Positions 53,007 to 59,929 of a DNA stretch of 64,000 nucleotides are shown here, piece by piece. The notes beneath the pieces were generated by a model. The model did not search any database, was not told the DNA's origin, and saw only the letters and a program-made list of their open reading frames with translations. This DNA is from Lentzea atacamensis (GTDB lineage Bacteria > Actinomycetota > Actinomycetes > Mycobacteriales > Pseudonocardiaceae): positions 70,811-134,810 of the forward strand of contig NZ_QLTT01000012.1 in NCBI RefSeq assembly GCF_003269295.1, in the 5' to 3' direction. The translations under genes were made by a program, and so were the position numbers. The number at the start of each line of letters is the position of its first letter. Position 1 is the first letter of the stretch.

Positions 53007-55574
53007 TCACTCGGCGTCGTTCGCCGGGGACTCCTGCGGCTCGGTGGCAGCGGGAGCGGCGAGGTCGACCGGCGGGGCGTCCGGAACGCGGTTCGGCTTG
53101 GCCTCGCCGCGGAAGACGAAGCGCGCCTTGTCGTGCTCGTCGGACACGCCGTCCCAGCCCTCGACGTCGGTGATGATGATCTGGCCCGGCTGGATCTCGC
53201 CGAACAGGATCTTCTCCGACAGCTGGTCCTCGATCTCGCGCTGGATCGTGCGGCGCAGCGGGCGGGCGCCCAGCACCGGGTCGAAGCCGCGCTTGGCCAG
53301 CAGGGACTTCGCCCTGTCGGTCAGCTCGAGGGCCATGTCCTTGTTCTTCAACTGGGTCTCGACGCGGGCGATCATCAGGTCCACCATCTTGATGATCTCG
53401 TCCTGAGTCAGCTGGTGGAAGACGATGATGTCGTCGATGCGGTTGAGGAACTCGGGGCGGAAGTGCTTCTTCAGCTCGTCGTTGACCTTGTTCTTCATGC
53501 GCTCGTAGTTGGACGCGGTGTCCTGACCCGAGGTGAAGCCGAGGCCGACTGCCTTGCTGATGTCGGACGTGCCCAGGTTCGACGTGAAGATGATGACGGT
53601 GTTCTTGAAGTCCACCGTCCGGCCCTGACCGTCGGTCAGGCGGCCGTCTTCCAGCACCTGGAGCAGCGTGTTGTAGACCTCCTGGTGGGCCTTCTCGATC
53701 TCGTCGAAGAGCACGACGGAGAACGGCTTGCGGCGCACCTTCTCGGTGAGCTGGCCGCCCTCTTCGTAGCCGACGTAGCCGGGAGGGGCACCGAAGAGCC
53801 GCGACGCGGTGTAGCGGTCGTGGAACTCGCCCATGTCGATCTGAATGAGCGCGTCGTCCTCGCCGAACAGGAAGTTCGCCAGCGCCTTCGAGAGCTCGGT
53901 CTTACCGACACCGGACGGGCCGGCGAAGATGAACGAGCCGGAGGGGCGCTTCGGGTCCTTCAGGCCGGCGCGGGTGCGGCGGATCGCCTGCGACACGGCC
54001 TTGACCGCGTCGACCTGGCCGATGATCCGCTTGTGCAGCTCGTCCTCCATGCGGAGCAGACGCGTGGTCTCCTCCTCGGTGAGCTTGAACACCGGGATGC
54101 CGGTCCAGTTGGCGAGGACCTCGGCGATCTGCTCGTCGTCGACCTCAGCGACGACGTCCAGGTCACCGTCCTTCCACTGCTTCTCCCGCTCGGCTTTCTG
54201 GCCCAGGAGCTGCTTCTCCGCGTCACGCAGCTTGGCCGCGCGCTCGAAGTCCTGCGCGTCGATCGCGGACTCCTTGTCGCGACGCACGTCCGCGATCTTC
54301 TCGTCGAACTCGCGCAGGTCTGGCGGCGCGGTCATCCGGCGGATGCGCATGCGAGCGCCCGCCTCGTCGATGAGGTCGATCGCCTTGTCCGGCAGGAACC
54401 GGTCGTTGATGTACCGGTCGGCCAGCGTGGCGGCGGCGACCAGCGCGGAGTCGGTGATCGAGACGCGGTGGTGCGCCTCGTACCGGTCGCGCAGGCCCTT
54501 GAGGATCTCGATGGTGTGCTCGAGCGACGGCTCGCCCACCTGGATCGGCTGGAAGCGGCGCTCCAGCGCGGGGTCCTTCTCGACGTGCTTGCGGTACTCG
54601 TCGAGCGTGGTCGCACCGATCGTCTGCAGCTCACCACGAGCCAGCATCGGCTTCAGGATCGACGCGGCGTCGATCGCGCCCTCGGCCGCACCCGCGCCGA
54701 CGAGCGTGTGGATCTCGTCGATGAACAGGATGATGTCGCCGCGCGTGCGGATCTCCTTGAGAACCTTCTTCAGGCGCTCTTCGAAGTCACCGCGGTAGCG
54801 GGAGCCCGCGACCAGCGAACCGAGGTCGAGCGTGTAGAGCTGCTTGTCCTTGAGCGTCTCGGGCACCTCGCCCTTGACGACCATCTGCGCCAGCCCCTCG
54901 ACGACGGCGGTCTTGCCGACGCCGGGCTCGCCGATGAGAACCGGGTTGTTCTTGGTGCGGCGGGACAGCACCTGCATGACCCGCTCGATCTCCTTGGTGC
55001 GCCCGATCACCGGGTCGAGCTTGCCCTCACGGGCCGAAGCCGTGAGGTTGCGCCCGAACTGGTCGAGGACCAGGGACGAGGACGGCGTGCCCTCACCACG
55101 ACCGGTCGACTCCGACGCGCCCTTCTCCGTCGAGTAACCGGACAGCAGCTGCAGCACCTGCTGCCGCACCCTGTTGAGGTCGGCACCCAGCTTCACGAGG
55201 ACCTGCGCAGCAACGCCCTCGCCCTCGCGGATGAGCCCGAGCAGGATGTGCTCGGTGCCGATGTAGTTGTGGCCGAGCTGAAGCGCCTCGCGCAGCGAGA
55301 GCTCCAGGACCTTCTTCGCACGGGGGGTGAAGGGGATGTGTCCACTCGGAGCCTGCTGGCCCTGGCCGATGATCTCTTCGACCTGCTGGCGGACGCCCTC
55401 CAGCGCAATCCCCAACGACTCGAGCGCCTTGGCGGCGACACCTTCACCCTCGTGGATCAGACCCAGGAGGATGTGCTCGGTGCCGATGTAGTTGTGGTTG
55501 AGCATCCGTGCCTCTTCTTGGGCAAGGACAACCACCCGCCTCGCGCGGTCGGTGAACCTTTCGAACATTCGCAC
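53007..55574 (-). CDS. clpC: ATP-dependent Clp protease ATP-binding subunit ClpC
   Basis: 855-residue AAA+ unfoldase feeding ClpP. N-domain repeats ([23 protein letters not shown] and [23 protein letters not shown]), first Walker [10 protein letters not shown] and Walker [11 protein letters not shown], a middle UVR-like coiled-coil ([18 protein letters not shown]), second Walker [10 protein letters not shown] and Walker [10 protein letters not shown], the ClpP-loop region, and [14 protein letters not shown]. Standard length and start. It matches clpC1 (Rv3596c) in the conserved order. A possible ClgR site lies 185 bases upstream. Confidence 0.97.
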
Positions 55575-55887: not shown

Positions 55888-56685
55888 TTGACCGTACCTG
55901 CGAGGGTCTCACAGCAGAACCCGCGTGCGCTCACGCCACTGGCCGAGTCCATCGCCCGCCTGGAGACCGACTCCGAAATCCGGTTCGGCATTCCTCCGAC
56001 TTCCTGGACGATCTGCTCGGACCTGCTGGCCGAACCCGCGCGCTTCGACCTGTGGCGCAAGGACCTGGCCGAATGGATGGCCGAGCAGTACGGCGAGTCC
56101 GACGACCGAGCCACCGCCGGCTACATCATGGGCTGGTACCTGCACATCCCGGGCACCATCGCGGGTCTCCTCTTCCACACGGCCCGCCGCGTCCCCACGC
56201 TCAAGCCCTCCGACATCGCCTTCCGCACCAACACCGACGGCCGCCCCCACCCGGACGGCATCTCCGTCCTCTCCGACGAGTTCGCCTGCCTCCCGGACGA
56301 CCCGGCCTCAAACCACCCGGCAGCCACCGTCGTGGCCAACGAGGCAGCCCTTGCCGCCCTGCTCCGAGCTCGCTATGCCGCCCACGCAGCCCAGTTCGTG
56401 GCCTCCTTCGGCCAGGTGGTCCGCTTCGGCCGCCGCACCCTCTGGGCAGCCGCGACCGACATGCTGGAGTACGGCGCCTGGGCAGCGGGCCGGGTCTGCG
56501 GTGACGAGAACGGCGGCGTGACCGACGCCGCGCTGATCCTGCCGGAGAAGCTCGACCCCTTCGTCTCCGCTTCGACCCTGCACCTCACCACGGAGGGCTG
56601 GAAGCGCAAGCGCAACAGCTGCTGCTTCCACTACGTGCTCCCGGAGGCCGAGCCCTGCACGGCCTGCCCCCGCACCTGCTCCTGA
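55888..56685 (+). CDS. FhuF-like 2Fe-2S ferric-siderophore reductase
   Basis: 265 residues. The C-terminus has the FhuF cluster Cys arrangement SCCFHYVLPEAEPCTACPRTC (C-C-x10-C-x2-C). The upstream part is a helical FhuF-like domain (WYLHIPGTIAGLLFHTARRVP, ARYAAHAAQFVASFGQVVRFGRR). Such proteins reduce ferric siderophores in the cytoplasm to free iron. TTG start with AGGA twelve bases upstream; no better start is near. An IdeR box lies in the promoter region. It works with the siderophore importer 3 kb away. Confidence 0.85.
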   Translation: MTVPARVSQQNPRALTPLAESIARLETDSEIRFGIPPTSWTICSDLLAEPARFDLWRKDLAEWMAEQYGESDDRATAGYIMGWYLHIPGTIAGLLFHTARRVPTLKPSDIAFRTNTDGRPHPDGISVLSDEFACLPDDPASNHPAATVVANEAALAALLRARYAAHAAQFVASFGQVVRFGRRTLWAAATDMLEYGAWAAGRVCGDENGGVTDAALILPEKLDPFVSASTLHLTTEGWKRKRNSCCFHYVLPEAEPCTACPRTCS

Positions 56686-57070
56686 GCAGGCCCGCGAGCC
56701 GCACCCGACAAGTCAGGGAAGGTCCCCCCGCGCCAACGAGGGGACCTCCGCGTCTGCGTCATCCGGAGCTAGCAGAAGGCGCAGGGGCACTGTGGCCCGA
56801 TGTCAGGATCGCTCCGCGACGGGCTTGCCGGTAGGGGTTTCCCGTTGCCAGTGGCACGTTGATTCGACTCCGGCCGGGAATCTTCCGCGACAAGTTGATG
56901 CCCTCCATCATTGACGTGAACACCAGGGGTCCGCGGTAGCGCCAACTGCTGCGGGTTGCCATCCCCCGGTTTGTCATCCGGAGCGAACAGCAAGCGCAGG
57001 AGGTTGTCGACGATGGCGTCAGTGCGCCGTCCCACGCCCATGCCCGGCACGACTGGGCGGCGGTGATCAG
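56686..57070. other. 385-bp interval with terminator and diverged direct repeats
   Basis: No convincing gene. It holds the fhuF-like terminator, then two copies of a 30-base segment (56758-56787 and 56973-57002, 25 of 30 identical). A minus-strand open frame (56769-57116, 115 codons) covers most of it and contains LLRLLFAPDD in the second repeat; the first repeat encodes LRLLLAPDD in a different frame. This looks like a decayed duplicated coding end rather than a live gene. Confidence 0.55.
56721..56746 (+). terminator. Terminator after the fhuF-like gene
   Basis: GGTCCCC pairs with GGGGACC around a 12-base loop, 36 bases after the stop codon. Confidence 0.7.
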
Positions 57071-57340
57071 ATGCCCAGGCCGGAGAAGCCCCTGGACCCA
57101 GCGTCGGGCTGCCCAATAGTGATCTTCGCGCTCGAACTGCGAGATCTGCGTAATACAGCGGCGCTCACCTACGTCGACCTGGCGAGGAAGACCCACTACT
57201 CCGCCAGCTGGCTCTCCAGGACCGCTAACGGAATACAGAAACCGGCGTGGCCGGTGGTGGAAGCGTTCGTGGCGGCCTGCGGCGGGGACGTCGGCTACTA
57301 CGCCGGCCGCTACGACTCCCTGCTCGGGGGATCGCGATGA
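57071..57340 (+). CDS. Small helix-turn-helix protein, first gene of the TIR cassette
   Basis: 89 residues, nearly all one XRE-like DNA-binding domain: IFALELRDLRNTAALTYVDLARKTHYSASWLSRTANGIQKPAWPVVEAFVAACGG is the five-helix core (recognition helix around SASWLSRTANG). No sensor domain. ATG start. Its stop overlaps the next start as ATGA. It and the N-terminus of the next protein are two HTH units in tandem, probably acting on the same promoter. The target is unknown. Confidence 0.75.
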   Translation: MPRPEKPLDPASGCPIVIFALELRDLRNTAALTYVDLARKTHYSASWLSRTANGIQKPAWPVVEAFVAACGGDVGYYAGRYDSLLGGSR

Positions 57341-58539
57341 ACGACTTCGGCAATACGCTGCGCCGCCTGCGCCTCGAGAAGGGCATGTCGCTGGCGAACT
57401 TGGCCAAGCTGACGAACTACTCCAAGGGCTACCTGAGCAAGGTGGAGAGCGGCGTACGGCCGGCATCGGACGGTATCGCTCGCGTGTGCGACGGTGCCCT
57501 GGGCACGAACGGACAGCTGCTGGCCGCCCTGGCCGACGAAACCCGGACGGCCATGGCGAATCGGCTGCCCATCGTCATGCCGGTCGGCTACACCGCGTCG
57601 TCGGACCAGCCGGAGGACGGTTTCCGCGGTGACCTCGACGACTACACCGCGCAGTTCTGGTCGATCTTCGGAACGTTGCGGAGGATGGGGCACACCATGA
57701 GCCCCGAGATCGTCCTTCCCATGGTGCTCGCGAACATCGAGACCGTGAGCAAGGTGCTCCAGTCGGCCAAGGCCGCCCCCACGCACGGGCTCGTCCTGCT
57801 GGCCGCCCGGTTCAACGAGTACGCGGGGTGGATGGCCCAGGAGGCGGGCAGGGACGACCTCTTCCAGCGCCTGACGGCGGAGGCCGTACGCCTGGCCATC
57901 GAGGCGGGCGACCACGAGCTTCCCCAGTTCGCCGTGGTCCGGCAGGCCGATCGGGCCCTGTACAACGGAGATGGACGCGGAATCGTGGACCTGACCGGCA
58001 GAGTCCTCCGCTGTCAGAACATCACGCCACGCACTCGCTCCACCGCGTGGCTGCGGCAGGCACAGGGACACGCGCTGCTCGGAGATCGTTCCAGCTGCCT
58101 GCGCGCCCTGGACAGCGCACGTGAGTCCGACGAGGCCGACCACGCCGAGACCGGGGTGCGGTCGCTCGGTACGACGAGCGTGGGAAATCAGGTCGATGTG
58201 ACCACGGGATGGTCGCTCGTCGACCTCTGCCGCCACGACGAAGCCATTCCCGTACTGCACAAGGTGATCTCTGGAGTTTCCACGGACTCCATGCGCTCAC
58301 GCGTTCGCTTCGGCGTGCGTCTGGCGCTGGCCTACGCTTCGATCGGGGAGAGGGAGCAGGCAAGTCATCTCGTCCACGCGGCACTTCCCGGCCTCCGCCA
58401 GGTCGACTCCGACTCGATTCGCGTCGACCTGAAGGCCCTGGCCGACATGCTCCGGCGCCGATGGGCCCGTGACGTCGCCGTCGCTGACCTGCTCGCGGAA
58501 CTGAGGCCCCAGCTGGGTCGATCGGCCAGGCGCGGATGA
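57337..58539 (+). CDS. XRE-family regulator with helical-repeat sensor domain
   Basis: 400 residues. Residues 1-65 are an XRE HTH (FGNTLRRLRLEKGMSLANLAKLTNYSKGYLSKVESGVRPASDGIARV). Residues about 110-400 are paired helices of TPR-like type (LLAARFNEYAGWMAQEAGRDD, QFAVVRQADRALYNGDGRGIVDL, AWLRQAQGHALLGDRSSCLRAL, VRFGVRLALAYASIGEREQASHLVHAALPGL). This layout occurs in peptide- or protein-sensing regulators. Start and stop both overlap neighbours (ATGA), so it is translated together with the small HTH and the TIR protein. Confidence 0.85.
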   Translation: MNDFGNTLRRLRLEKGMSLANLAKLTNYSKGYLSKVESGVRPASDGIARVCDGALGTNGQLLAALADETRTAMANRLPIVMPVGYTASSDQPEDGFRGDLDDYTAQFWSIFGTLRRMGHTMSPEIVLPMVLANIETVSKVLQSAKAAPTHGLVLLAARFNEYAGWMAQEAGRDDLFQRLTAEAVRLAIEAGDHELPQFAVVRQADRALYNGDGRGIVDLTGRVLRCQNITPRTRSTAWLRQAQGHALLGDRSSCLRALDSARESDEADHAETGVRSLGTTSVGNQVDVTTGWSLVDLCRHDEAIPVLHKVISGVSTDSMRSRVRFGVRLALAYASIGEREQASHLVHAALPGLRQVDSDSIRVDLKALADMLRRRWARDVAVADLLAELRPQLGRSARRG

Positions 58540-58877
58540 ACGTCTTCGTGAGCTACTCCCGTCGGGACAACGAGCAAACCCTGCTCGAGATCGAACGGCT
58601 GATCAGCTGGGGCACGCCCTACATCGACGATCTGCATCACAGCCGACACGGAGGAGATCGGCACGAGGCGGTGGAGTTCGCGCTCCGCGCGTCCCAAGAG
58701 TTCGTGGCGGTCCTGTCCCCTTCGTACCTGCGGACGCCGTGGACGCGATGGGAGTTCGGGTGGGCCGTCGAGAGTGGGATCCCGATGGTCGCCCTGATCG
58801 GGAACTCCAAGCTCGTGCCGATCAACGAGGAAATGAAGTACCGGCTCCTGAACGACCTGACGGCGTTGGCCGCCTGA
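58536..58877 (+). CDS. Minimal TIR-domain protein
   Basis: 113 residues, a TIR domain and nothing else. NVFVSYSRRDNEQTLLEIERLI is box 1; ASQEFVAVLSPSYLRTPWTRWEFGWAVESGIPMVALI has the candidate catalytic Glu73 in the TRWEFGWA helix, as in NAD-consuming TIR enzymes. The middle (TPYIDDLHHSRHGGDRHEAVEFAL) replaces the usual BB-loop region. ATG overlaps the XRE gene stop. As a lone TIR unit it needs a partner for assembly; the upstream repeat protein or the following membrane protein could supply it. Confidence 0.8.
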   Translation: MNVFVSYSRRDNEQTLLEIERLISWGTPYIDDLHHSRHGGDRHEAVEFALRASQEFVAVLSPSYLRTPWTRWEFGWAVESGIPMVALIGNSKLVPINEEMKYRLLNDLTALAA

Positions 58878-58887
58878 CGCTAGGACG

Positions 58888-59133
58888 ATGGCGATGACCT
58901 CACCCGACCAACCGTGCCCGACGTGCGGGCGCGGCCCGGCATCCGCGAACACCCATAACCACGTACTCCTCGGCCTGCGCACAACCTTGATCATTGTCAC
59001 CGCGTTCGCCTGCGCCGGCGTCGTGGGTGTGTTGACCTACTTGGTGAACTACAACGTGCCTGCTGCCATCCTCGCCGGCCTCGGCACGCTGGGTGCCGCT
59101 CTGGTCGGTCTGCACGTGCTCATCGGCCAGTAG
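58888..59133 (+). CDS. Small zinc-ribbon-like two-TM membrane protein, last gene of the TIR cassette
   Basis: 81 residues. An N-terminal CPTCG motif, with nearby His residues (NTHNH), may bind a metal. Two transmembrane segments follow (TLIIVTAFACAGVVGVLTYLV and AAILAGLGTLGAALVGLHVLI). It starts 10 bases after the TIR gene stop, ATG start. Not recognised. Small two-helix proteins next to TIR genes can be membrane effectors or anchors; that is inference. It is convergent with the iron importer operon, one base from its last gene. Confidence 0.72.
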   Translation: MAMTSPDQPCPTCGRGPASANTHNHVLLGLRTTLIIVTAFACAGVVGVLTYLVNYNVPAAILAGLGTLGAALVGLHVLIGQ

Positions 59134-59134
59134 C

Positions 59135-59929
59135 TCAACTCCGGTGGCGCGAACCCACCGGCACAACCAACGGCGTCCCAGAAACCGGATCCTCGACAAC
59201 CCGAGCATCCAAGCCGAAAACATCCAGCAACATGGCCTCGGTCAACACATCCCCAGGCGCCCCCTGAGCCACGATCCGCCCATCCCGCATGGCAACGATG
59301 TTGTCCGCATACCGAGCAGCCAAGTTCAGATCGTGCAACACCATGACGACAGTCCGCCCCATGCTGGAGTGCAACTCCTGCACCAGGTCCAACACGTCGA
59401 TCTGATGCGCAAGATCCAGGTACGTGGTCGGCTCGTCCAGCAGCAACAGATCCGTGCCCTGCGCCAACGCCATGGAGATCCACGCCCGCTGCCGCTGCCC
59501 ACCGGACAGCTCGTCCACGGTCCGCTCGGCCAGGTCCGAGATCCCGGTCATCGCCAACGCGGCATCAACAGCAGCCTCGTCATCCGAGGACCACTGCCGA
59601 TACCAGGACTGATGCGGATGCCGGCCACGAGCAACCAGATCGGCCACCGTCAGCCCTTCAGGCGCCGACGGAGCCTGAGGCAACAACCCCAGCACCCGAG
59701 CCACCTCCCGAGTGGGCATCCGGTCGATCTGCTTGCCGTCCAGCAGAACCGCACCCGACCGTGCAGGCAGCAACCGCCCAAGAGCACGCAGCAGCGTCGA
59801 CTTGCCACACCCGTTGGGCCCGATCACCGCGGTGACGGTCCCGCCGACCACCGACAGGTCCAGGGTGTCGACGACCAGCCGCTCCCCGTACCCGACACAC
59901 AGCGACGAAGCCTCAAGACGCACACTCAT
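59135..59929 (-). CDS. Iron-siderophore ABC transporter ATPase (FecE/FepC-like)
   Basis: 264 residues. Walker A GPNGCGKST, Q-loop GLLPQAPSAPEGLTV, signature LSGGQRQRAWISMALAQ, Walker B LLLLDEPTTYLD, H-loop VLHDLNLAARYAD. This arrangement (TTYLD, HDLN) is typical of siderophore/B12 importers. The ATG overlaps the preceding permease stop. Last gene of the three-gene operon. Confidence 0.92.
   Translation of the reverse strand: MSVRLEASSLCVGYGERLVVDTLDLSVVGGTVTAVIGPNGCGKSTLLRALGRLLPARSGAVLLDGKQIDRMPTREVARVLGLLPQAPSAPEGLTVADLVARGRHPHQSWYRQWSSDDEAAVDAALAMTGISDLAERTVDELSGGQRQRAWISMALAQGTDLLLLDEPTTYLDLAHQIDVLDLVQELHSSMGRTVVMVLHDLNLAARYADNIVAMRDGRIVAQGAPGDVLTEAMLLDVFGLDARVVEDPVSGTPLVVPVGSRHRS

Follow-up and report, generated by a model that had tools for sequence, protein, structure and literature searches.

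Closest Described Systems

According to the available part of PMC9503650, TIR genes of firmicute phages lie in conserved neighbourhoods with a gene for a two-transmembrane (2TM) SLATT protein and sometimes with an HTH gene, and a membrane effector regulated by ADP-ribose is predicted for these TIR and SLATT modules. SLATT proteins are predicted to be nucleotide-responsive pore formers and occur alongside TIR proteins and further nucleotide enzymes (PMC7159879, available part). For the TM-macro form of ThsA in Thoeris, membrane perturbation is proposed in the part of PMC11204291 that was available.

The cassette analysed here consisted of four genes at 57071–59133 of the window (the whole stretch of 64,000 nt of DNA that was analysed). 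As in the phage modules, a gene for a small TIR protein stood next to one for a two-helix membrane protein, a pair to which an HTH gene is sometimes added in those modules. As far as the available text on the phage modules goes, the cassette differed from them in showing no SLATT match in the Pfam search, in having two HTH proteins, one of them TPR-like, and in its chromosomal location in an actinomycete-type genome. With Thoeris (ThsB and TM-macro ThsA) it shared a putative TIR enzyme with a membrane partner, but the four genes contained no macro, SIR2 or SLOG effector. Membership of Thoeris was rejected, as the HMM scores were far below the cut-offs and no ThsA-type effector (SIR2-SLOG or TM-macro) was present in the operon.

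The original prediction had stated that no named system with this composition was known. At the cut-offs of Pfam, NCBIfam and PADLOC, the four genes matched no named system, and the literature searched, which left out most subscription papers and preprints, contained no named system of such composition. The literature searched also contained nothing on "type III Thoeris" and nothing joining FxsC and TIR. The statement held at the level of the databases, but the general kind had already been predicted in the available part of PMC9503650: a TIR gene with a 2TM partner, sometimes with an HTH gene, is known as a prediction, and the composition found here appears to be new.

Organization and Genomic Setting of the Cassette

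The four genes were intact and located on the + strand. Gene 1 (57071–57340, +) encoded a lone HTH_31 (XRE-type) DNA-binding protein of 89 aa, and gene 2 (57337–58539, +) encoded a 400-aa regulator of the NsdA family with an HTH_31 domain and a TPR-like part. Gene 3 (58536–58877, +) encoded a stand-alone TIR_2 protein of 113 aa with Glu73 in the motif TRWEF, and gene 4 (58888–59133, +) encoded an 81-aa protein with a CPTCG motif and two hydrophobic segments. Genes 1 and 2 overlapped by ATGA at 57337 and genes 2 and 3 at 58536, and the gap between gene 3 and gene 4 was 10 bases; the tightly coupled layout on one strand described in the original prediction was confirmed in every part. The third-position GC of genes 1–4 was 0.81–0.87, which fits the 68% GC of the window and indicates the coding sequence of real genes.

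The genome assembly around the window comprised 9.3 Mb in 32 contigs. Upstream of the cassette, we took 53007–55574 to be a clpC-like gene and 55888–56685 to be a fhuF-like gene; a leader of 385 bases (56686–57070) separated the latter from gene 1. Downstream, the opposite-strand frame ending at 59135 was presumably an ABC ATPase gene. Recognized in this way by sequence, the neighbours agreed with the clpC, fhuF and siderophore importer genes named earlier. The flanks were housekeeping-type genes and no defence island surrounded the window copy.

Recurrence and Distribution of the Cassette

The TIR search of 297 genomes of the family gave 17 genomes at E ≤ 0.001, and six, own genome included, reached 1e-17 or better. 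The gene 2 search of 390 family genomes gave 19 genomes at 1e-58 or better. In the gene 2 family search 4 candidates were scored per genome, and in the alignment searches 10, so misses were possible.

In a second species of the genus (L031), the four genes had the same order and occupied the equivalent position, with fhuF on one side and the ABC ATPase gene on the other. Its identities to the window were 41–42% for gene 1, 52% for gene 2 and 56% over 82 columns for gene 3, with fhuF 85% identical. A genome of another genus (L028) carried the HTH, XRE/TPR and TIR genes in this order at a different site, and then a gene whose 95-aa product has two hydrophobic segments; gene 1 was 37% and gene 2 was 39% identical to the window. 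The L028 copy lay on a 7,030-base contig of an assembly that was 74% complete. On its 3' side came tniB (4.7e-75) and a gene resembling tniQ (2.8e-5, 25.2 bits at a cut-off of 27, just below it).

When the four proteins were searched against the gene 2 loci by tblastn, no locus other than the window, L031/L037 and L028/L122 had both an upstream lone HTH gene and a downstream TIR gene, and the other gene 1 matches landed on the HTH of gene 2 itself. Three copies of the cassette were found in total. As the order recurred in two other genomes, it is more than chance. The co-occurrence of the four genes was thereby supported, with the full set in order in L031 and with genes 1–3 and a differing membrane protein in L028.

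Among 24 genomes of the genus, the interval between fhuF and the ABC ATPase gene was cassette-free in 18, occupied in two carriers and interrupted by a contig end in four. The cassette-free interval was 8–586 bases between match ends; one of the 18 (L089) had partial fhuF and ABC matches. The four genomes with the cut interval had no close TIR relative; in G282, one of these four, a 591-aa frame gave a weak match (1.5e-4). The two carriers were not sisters in a fhuF tree made with FastTree, which was rooted on G193 and carried no support values, and the two genomes closest to the window genome (G182 and G230) had no TIR match. Repeated gain at one site, exchange from strain to strain, or many losses would all fit, and the cassette is seemingly rare and movable. 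Near relatives on plasmids or phages were rejected, as searches of 72,556 plasmid records and 50,697 phage records found no TIR relative and the IMG/VR pattern scan gave no confirmed one.

TIR Protein

Gene 3 passed the Pfam TIR_2 model (6.9e-10; 39.9 bits at a cut-off of 28). Residues W69, T70 and E73 were invariant in all six aligned TIR sequences, which also had in common a DDL motif at 31–33, G39 and R42. The best solved relatives of the gene 3 profile were the TIR domain protein 7uxr (0.0077) and then AbTir (0.011 and 0.021). The WT..E motif of gene 3 aligned with the AbTir chains, and the Glu aligned with E73 is presumably the catalytic Glu of AbTir. The catalytic Glu position claimed for gene 3 was thus retained. 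Gene 3 resembled the NAD hydrolase AbTir in its TIR family and in the aligned motif, whereas the similarity at the two E-values given was weak.

The predicted structure of gene 3 was modest (pLDDT 67, pTM 0.61, two input sequences), and residues 26–39, the expected second strand, were mostly of low confidence. In the Foldseek search with this modest model, 48 of the 50 matches listed were TIR proteins by title, with SARM1, plant NLRs, SPARTA, AbTir, ThsB and SpbK among the titles. Only one of the matches listed reached E 0.001, and the rmsd was large, about 4–12 Å.

The PADLOC matches of gene 3 were weak (best 0.001; ThsB E 0.005), and its score against NCBIfam ThcB4, 15.3 bits of 220, was far below the cut-off. 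Sub-cut-off similarity to ThcB4 and FxsC was strongest in the L028 TIR (1.5e-8 and 1.9e-6, respectively).

Membrane Proteins Beside the TIR Subfamily

Hydropathy analysis placed the hydrophobic segments of gene 4 at residues 35–53 and 57–75. Gene 4 had no Pfam match above cut-off, no recognisable ligand-binding domain in Pfam and no PADLOC match; no SLATT match was found in Pfam up to E 1, the SLATT coverage of this library being uncertain. The counterpart in L031 shared 45–50% identity and the CPTCG motif with gene 4, and the 95-aa protein in its place in L028 was without CPTCG and of uncertain relation to gene 4. At E ≤ 0.01, the gene 4 search of the 24 genus genomes gave 8 matches in 7 genomes; two of the matches were the cassettes, and the six others, in different settings, had 35–48% identity over 50–78 residues (E 2.6e-9 to 1.9e-5). 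Since gene 4 has relatives that are not near TIR genes, the cassette is not its only setting, and it looks like a portable two-segment protein more than a dedicated TIR partner. At L151:686–1480 and L152:1785–2594, genes that read as sigma-factor-like each preceded a distant relative of gene 4, which gives a second setting for the two-segment protein.

In three family genomes the TIR gene was paired with a different membrane-protein gene (type B loci: L029:6199–7124, L030:2465–3321 and L032:5907–6790). The membrane protein was about 150–170 residues long, its gene ran into the TIR gene with a start/stop overlap, and no HTH gene overlapped the pair or lay directly upstream. Two or three hydrophobic segments were seen by hydropathy in the type B proteins, whose start points were assigned by hand. 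The class search of 394 genomes gave 12 genomes at 1e-6, and one more strong match was that of G487 (L121, 5.6e-33). At this locus of another family (L121:5935–6863), a type B membrane gene with a broken frame preceded the TIR gene. The L121 pair was located a few kb from genes read as GntR-like and FtsK/TraB-like genes of an integrative element.

A membrane and TIR pair with an ATGA overlap was also found in a cyanobacterium (L018:5402–6300, JAAFHZ010000039.1). The GTDB contig scan, which used a single protein and was therefore limited to close relatives, yielded one relative, the TIR protein of this pair, which was 37% identical to the window TIR over residues 1–70. The L018 membrane protein, at 30% identity, kept LD....DQLH and CFE.KK.C. 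No plasmid match of the type B membrane protein was found and none was confirmed in IMG/VR.

Three type B family proteins were scanned with the PADLOC PDC-M50A HMM, with weak matches for L030 (1.3e-4) and L018 (8.5e-4) and none for L029; by profile, the family was more clearly, if distantly, related to PDC-M50A (hhalign 90%, 1.4e-6). PDC-M50A was found in 5 of 198 genomes of the phylum, and four of the five loci had a ThsB_TIR (PF08937) gene in the short flank, which in L143 was on the other strand; in L145 none was noticed. The PADLOC candidate PDC-M50 and the cassette are alike in a small membrane protein near a TIR-type gene, but the four nearby TIR genes of PDC-M50 were ThsB_TIR and the window TIR was TIR_2. 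Gene 4 showed no relation to the PDC-M50A-like type B profile (hhalign 0.3%, from shallow alignments), and its membership of PDC-M50 was rejected on this result and on the missing PADLOC match.

A membrane-protein gene adjoined the TIR gene in seven of seven strong loci of the same class (own locus included) and in the cyanobacterial L018, in two architectures. Gene 4 had been put forward as a membrane partner of the TIR protein. Such a gene does recur beside the TIR subfamily, but the gene 4 relatives away from TIR genes and the differing protein of L028 weaken the claim for gene 4 itself. One TIR subfamily was thus repeatedly paired with membrane proteins of two families that seem unrelated, a direct and testable hint of membrane contact in the action of these TIR proteins.

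Regulators and Leader

Pfam HTH_31 matched gene 1 at 3.7e-14 and gene 2 at 1.3e-12. Gene 2 passed the NCBIfam model NsdA_fam_reg (NF053720), a TPR-like regulator model, with 132 bits at a cut-off of 75, and its Pfam TPR match was weak (0.047). The NsdA family includes antibiotic-production regulators. Gene 2 is like the XRE/TPR regulators of this family, but it scored below the cut-offs of the NsdA and NsdB equivalogs (29.7 of 830 and 19.6 of 700 bits, respectively) and differs further in being joined to a TIR gene. The PADLOC matches of genes 1 and 2 were at the level of generic HTH proteins (best HTH_VI, 8.6e-8), and the predicted structure of gene 2 was poor (pLDDT 52, pTM 0.33). Gene 2 had two plasmid relatives of ~35% identity, both from Streptomyces, and relatives among phage proteins (best phrog_10886, 2.1e-19).

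The leader contained an imperfect 28-nt direct repeat (56758–56785 and 56973–57000; 86% identical, 215 bases apart). In the cassette-free relatives, blastn matches ended no more than about 25 bases from the end of fhuF. No sigma-70-type promoter was found, with 0.3 expected by chance. Three 18-nt direct repeats with a spacing of 22–23 nt lay 5' of gene 1 at L031:4689–4751 and are possible operator sites, and L028 had an inverted repeat. A shared operator was rejected, as the three 18-nt repeats, the 28-nt pair of the window and the inverted repeat had no site in common.

Proposed Function and Alternative Explanations

We tentatively propose, with a probability of about 0.45, that the cassette is a TIR/membrane effector module under tight regulation, and a seemingly movable one. 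Expression of the operon would be held or timed by genes 1 and 2 in response to a cue, and on this cue they would release the operon or the TIR protein. Gene 3 would then act as a TIR enzyme of minimal size, either using up NAD or converting it to an ADP-ribose signal. Gene 4 would be the membrane partner, either as the site of TIR action or as a pore or lesion former switched on by TIR. The affected cell would stop growing or die, most likely as a defence against phage or mobile DNA. NADase catalysis, the signal and membrane damage are steps that we infer, as are a role in defence and the repression exerted by genes 1 and 2.

The conserved order, the patchy site, tniB/tniQ at L028, the TIR Glu and its alignment with AbTir, and the pairing of TIR and membrane genes supported the effector module, as did the profile relation of the type B membrane family to PDC-M50A, the TIR and SLATT modules predicted in PMC9503650 and the membrane perturbation suggested for ThsA in PMC11204291. 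Counted against it were the number of copies (three only), the incomplete L028 assembly, the third copy's lack of a clearly conserved gene 4, the six gene 4 matches outside the cassette, the lack of a defence island and of a plasmid or phage TIR relative, the weak PADLOC matches of the TIR protein, and the antibiotic-production regulators of the NsdA family. Of the regulated TIR effector system in the original prediction, the co-occurrence, the TIR signature and the recurring membrane gene were found, but no defence island was present and gene 4 was not exclusive. As the set joins a stand-alone TIR of only 113 aa to a switch of its own and a very small membrane partner, it could easily be cloned whole and tested.

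The overlapping genes with HTH partners, tniB/tniQ beside the L028 copy and the patchy distribution would also suit a toxin-antitoxin-like unit for mobile-element maintenance, in which gene 3, alone or together with gene 4, would act as toxin, while gene 2, aided by gene 1, would both repress and neutralise. We consider such a unit rather unlikely, because its regulatory part would comprise 489 residues in two proteins, which is large for an antitoxin, and because the TIR subfamily occurs in type B loci with no HTH gene overlapping or directly upstream. A Thoeris-like pair, in which TIR would make a specific nucleotide and gene 4 would be activated as the effector, is more doubtful. In Thoeris, TIR proteins work together with TM-macro effectors (PMC11204291, available part), and sub-cut-off similarity to ThcB4 and ThsB was seen (L028 TIR, 1.5e-8 to ThcB4); however, gene 4, of 81 aa, had no recognisable ligand-binding domain, and no ThsA-type gene was among the four.

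The membership of gene 2 in the NsdA family, and the frequent occurrence of its paralogues in a TIR-like, XRE-TPR and TPR triad that looks vertically inherited, would agree with a chromosomal NsdA-like regulatory module that tunes development or secondary metabolism and whose TIR serves as a scaffold for protein binding and has no enzyme role. This is improbable in view of the absence of the cassette from most of the genus, the transposition genes beside the L028 copy and the Glu kept in six of six aligned TIRs. Finally, the regulators, the TIR and the membrane gene could have come together by chance in one lineage and have no common function, as the occurrence of gene 4 relatives apart from TIR genes might suggest; the order common to three genomes, one of them of another genus and at a different site, already makes this very hard to believe.

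Wider Neighbourhoods of the Gene 2 Family

The gene 2-family scan gave 52 loci, of which some were orthologous and two pairs overlapped, with the query loci and the cassettes L037 and L122 included. A divergent 300-aa protein was matched in 32 of these loci, and in 34 a TPR protein that is similar, below the model cut-offs, to a part of AfsR-type regulators. A NUDIX hydrolase was found in nine (eight distinct), one match being partial and more than 1 kb away. Among three 300-aa proteins scanned, two had weak TIR_2 matches (0.011, below cut-off) and one had no match.

These neighbourhoods suggest that the gene 2 regulator family may be linked to NAD/ADP-ribose chemistry; NUDIX and TPR genes are common and the counts come without a background rate, so the neighbourhood counts are no test of this link. 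It is a long shot that they reflect a theme of actinobacteria that has so far gone undescribed, with XRE/TPR regulators of the NsdA type as dedicated sensors of NAD/ADP-ribose chemistry. Such regulators would stand beside a TIR with a catalytic signature, as here, or close to NUDIX hydrolases, or, across the family, beside TIR-like 300-aa proteins that have a TPR partner; in the cassette they would gate a minimal TIR and a 2TM killer.

A triad of the divergent 300-aa TIR-like protein, the XRE/TPR regulator and the AfsR-like TPR protein recurred in L124, L129, L132, L136 and most of L038–L062. The XRE/TPR regulator was located beside a NUDIX hydrolase at L034:4699–6511 and in L048, L058, L063, L123, L134 and L139.
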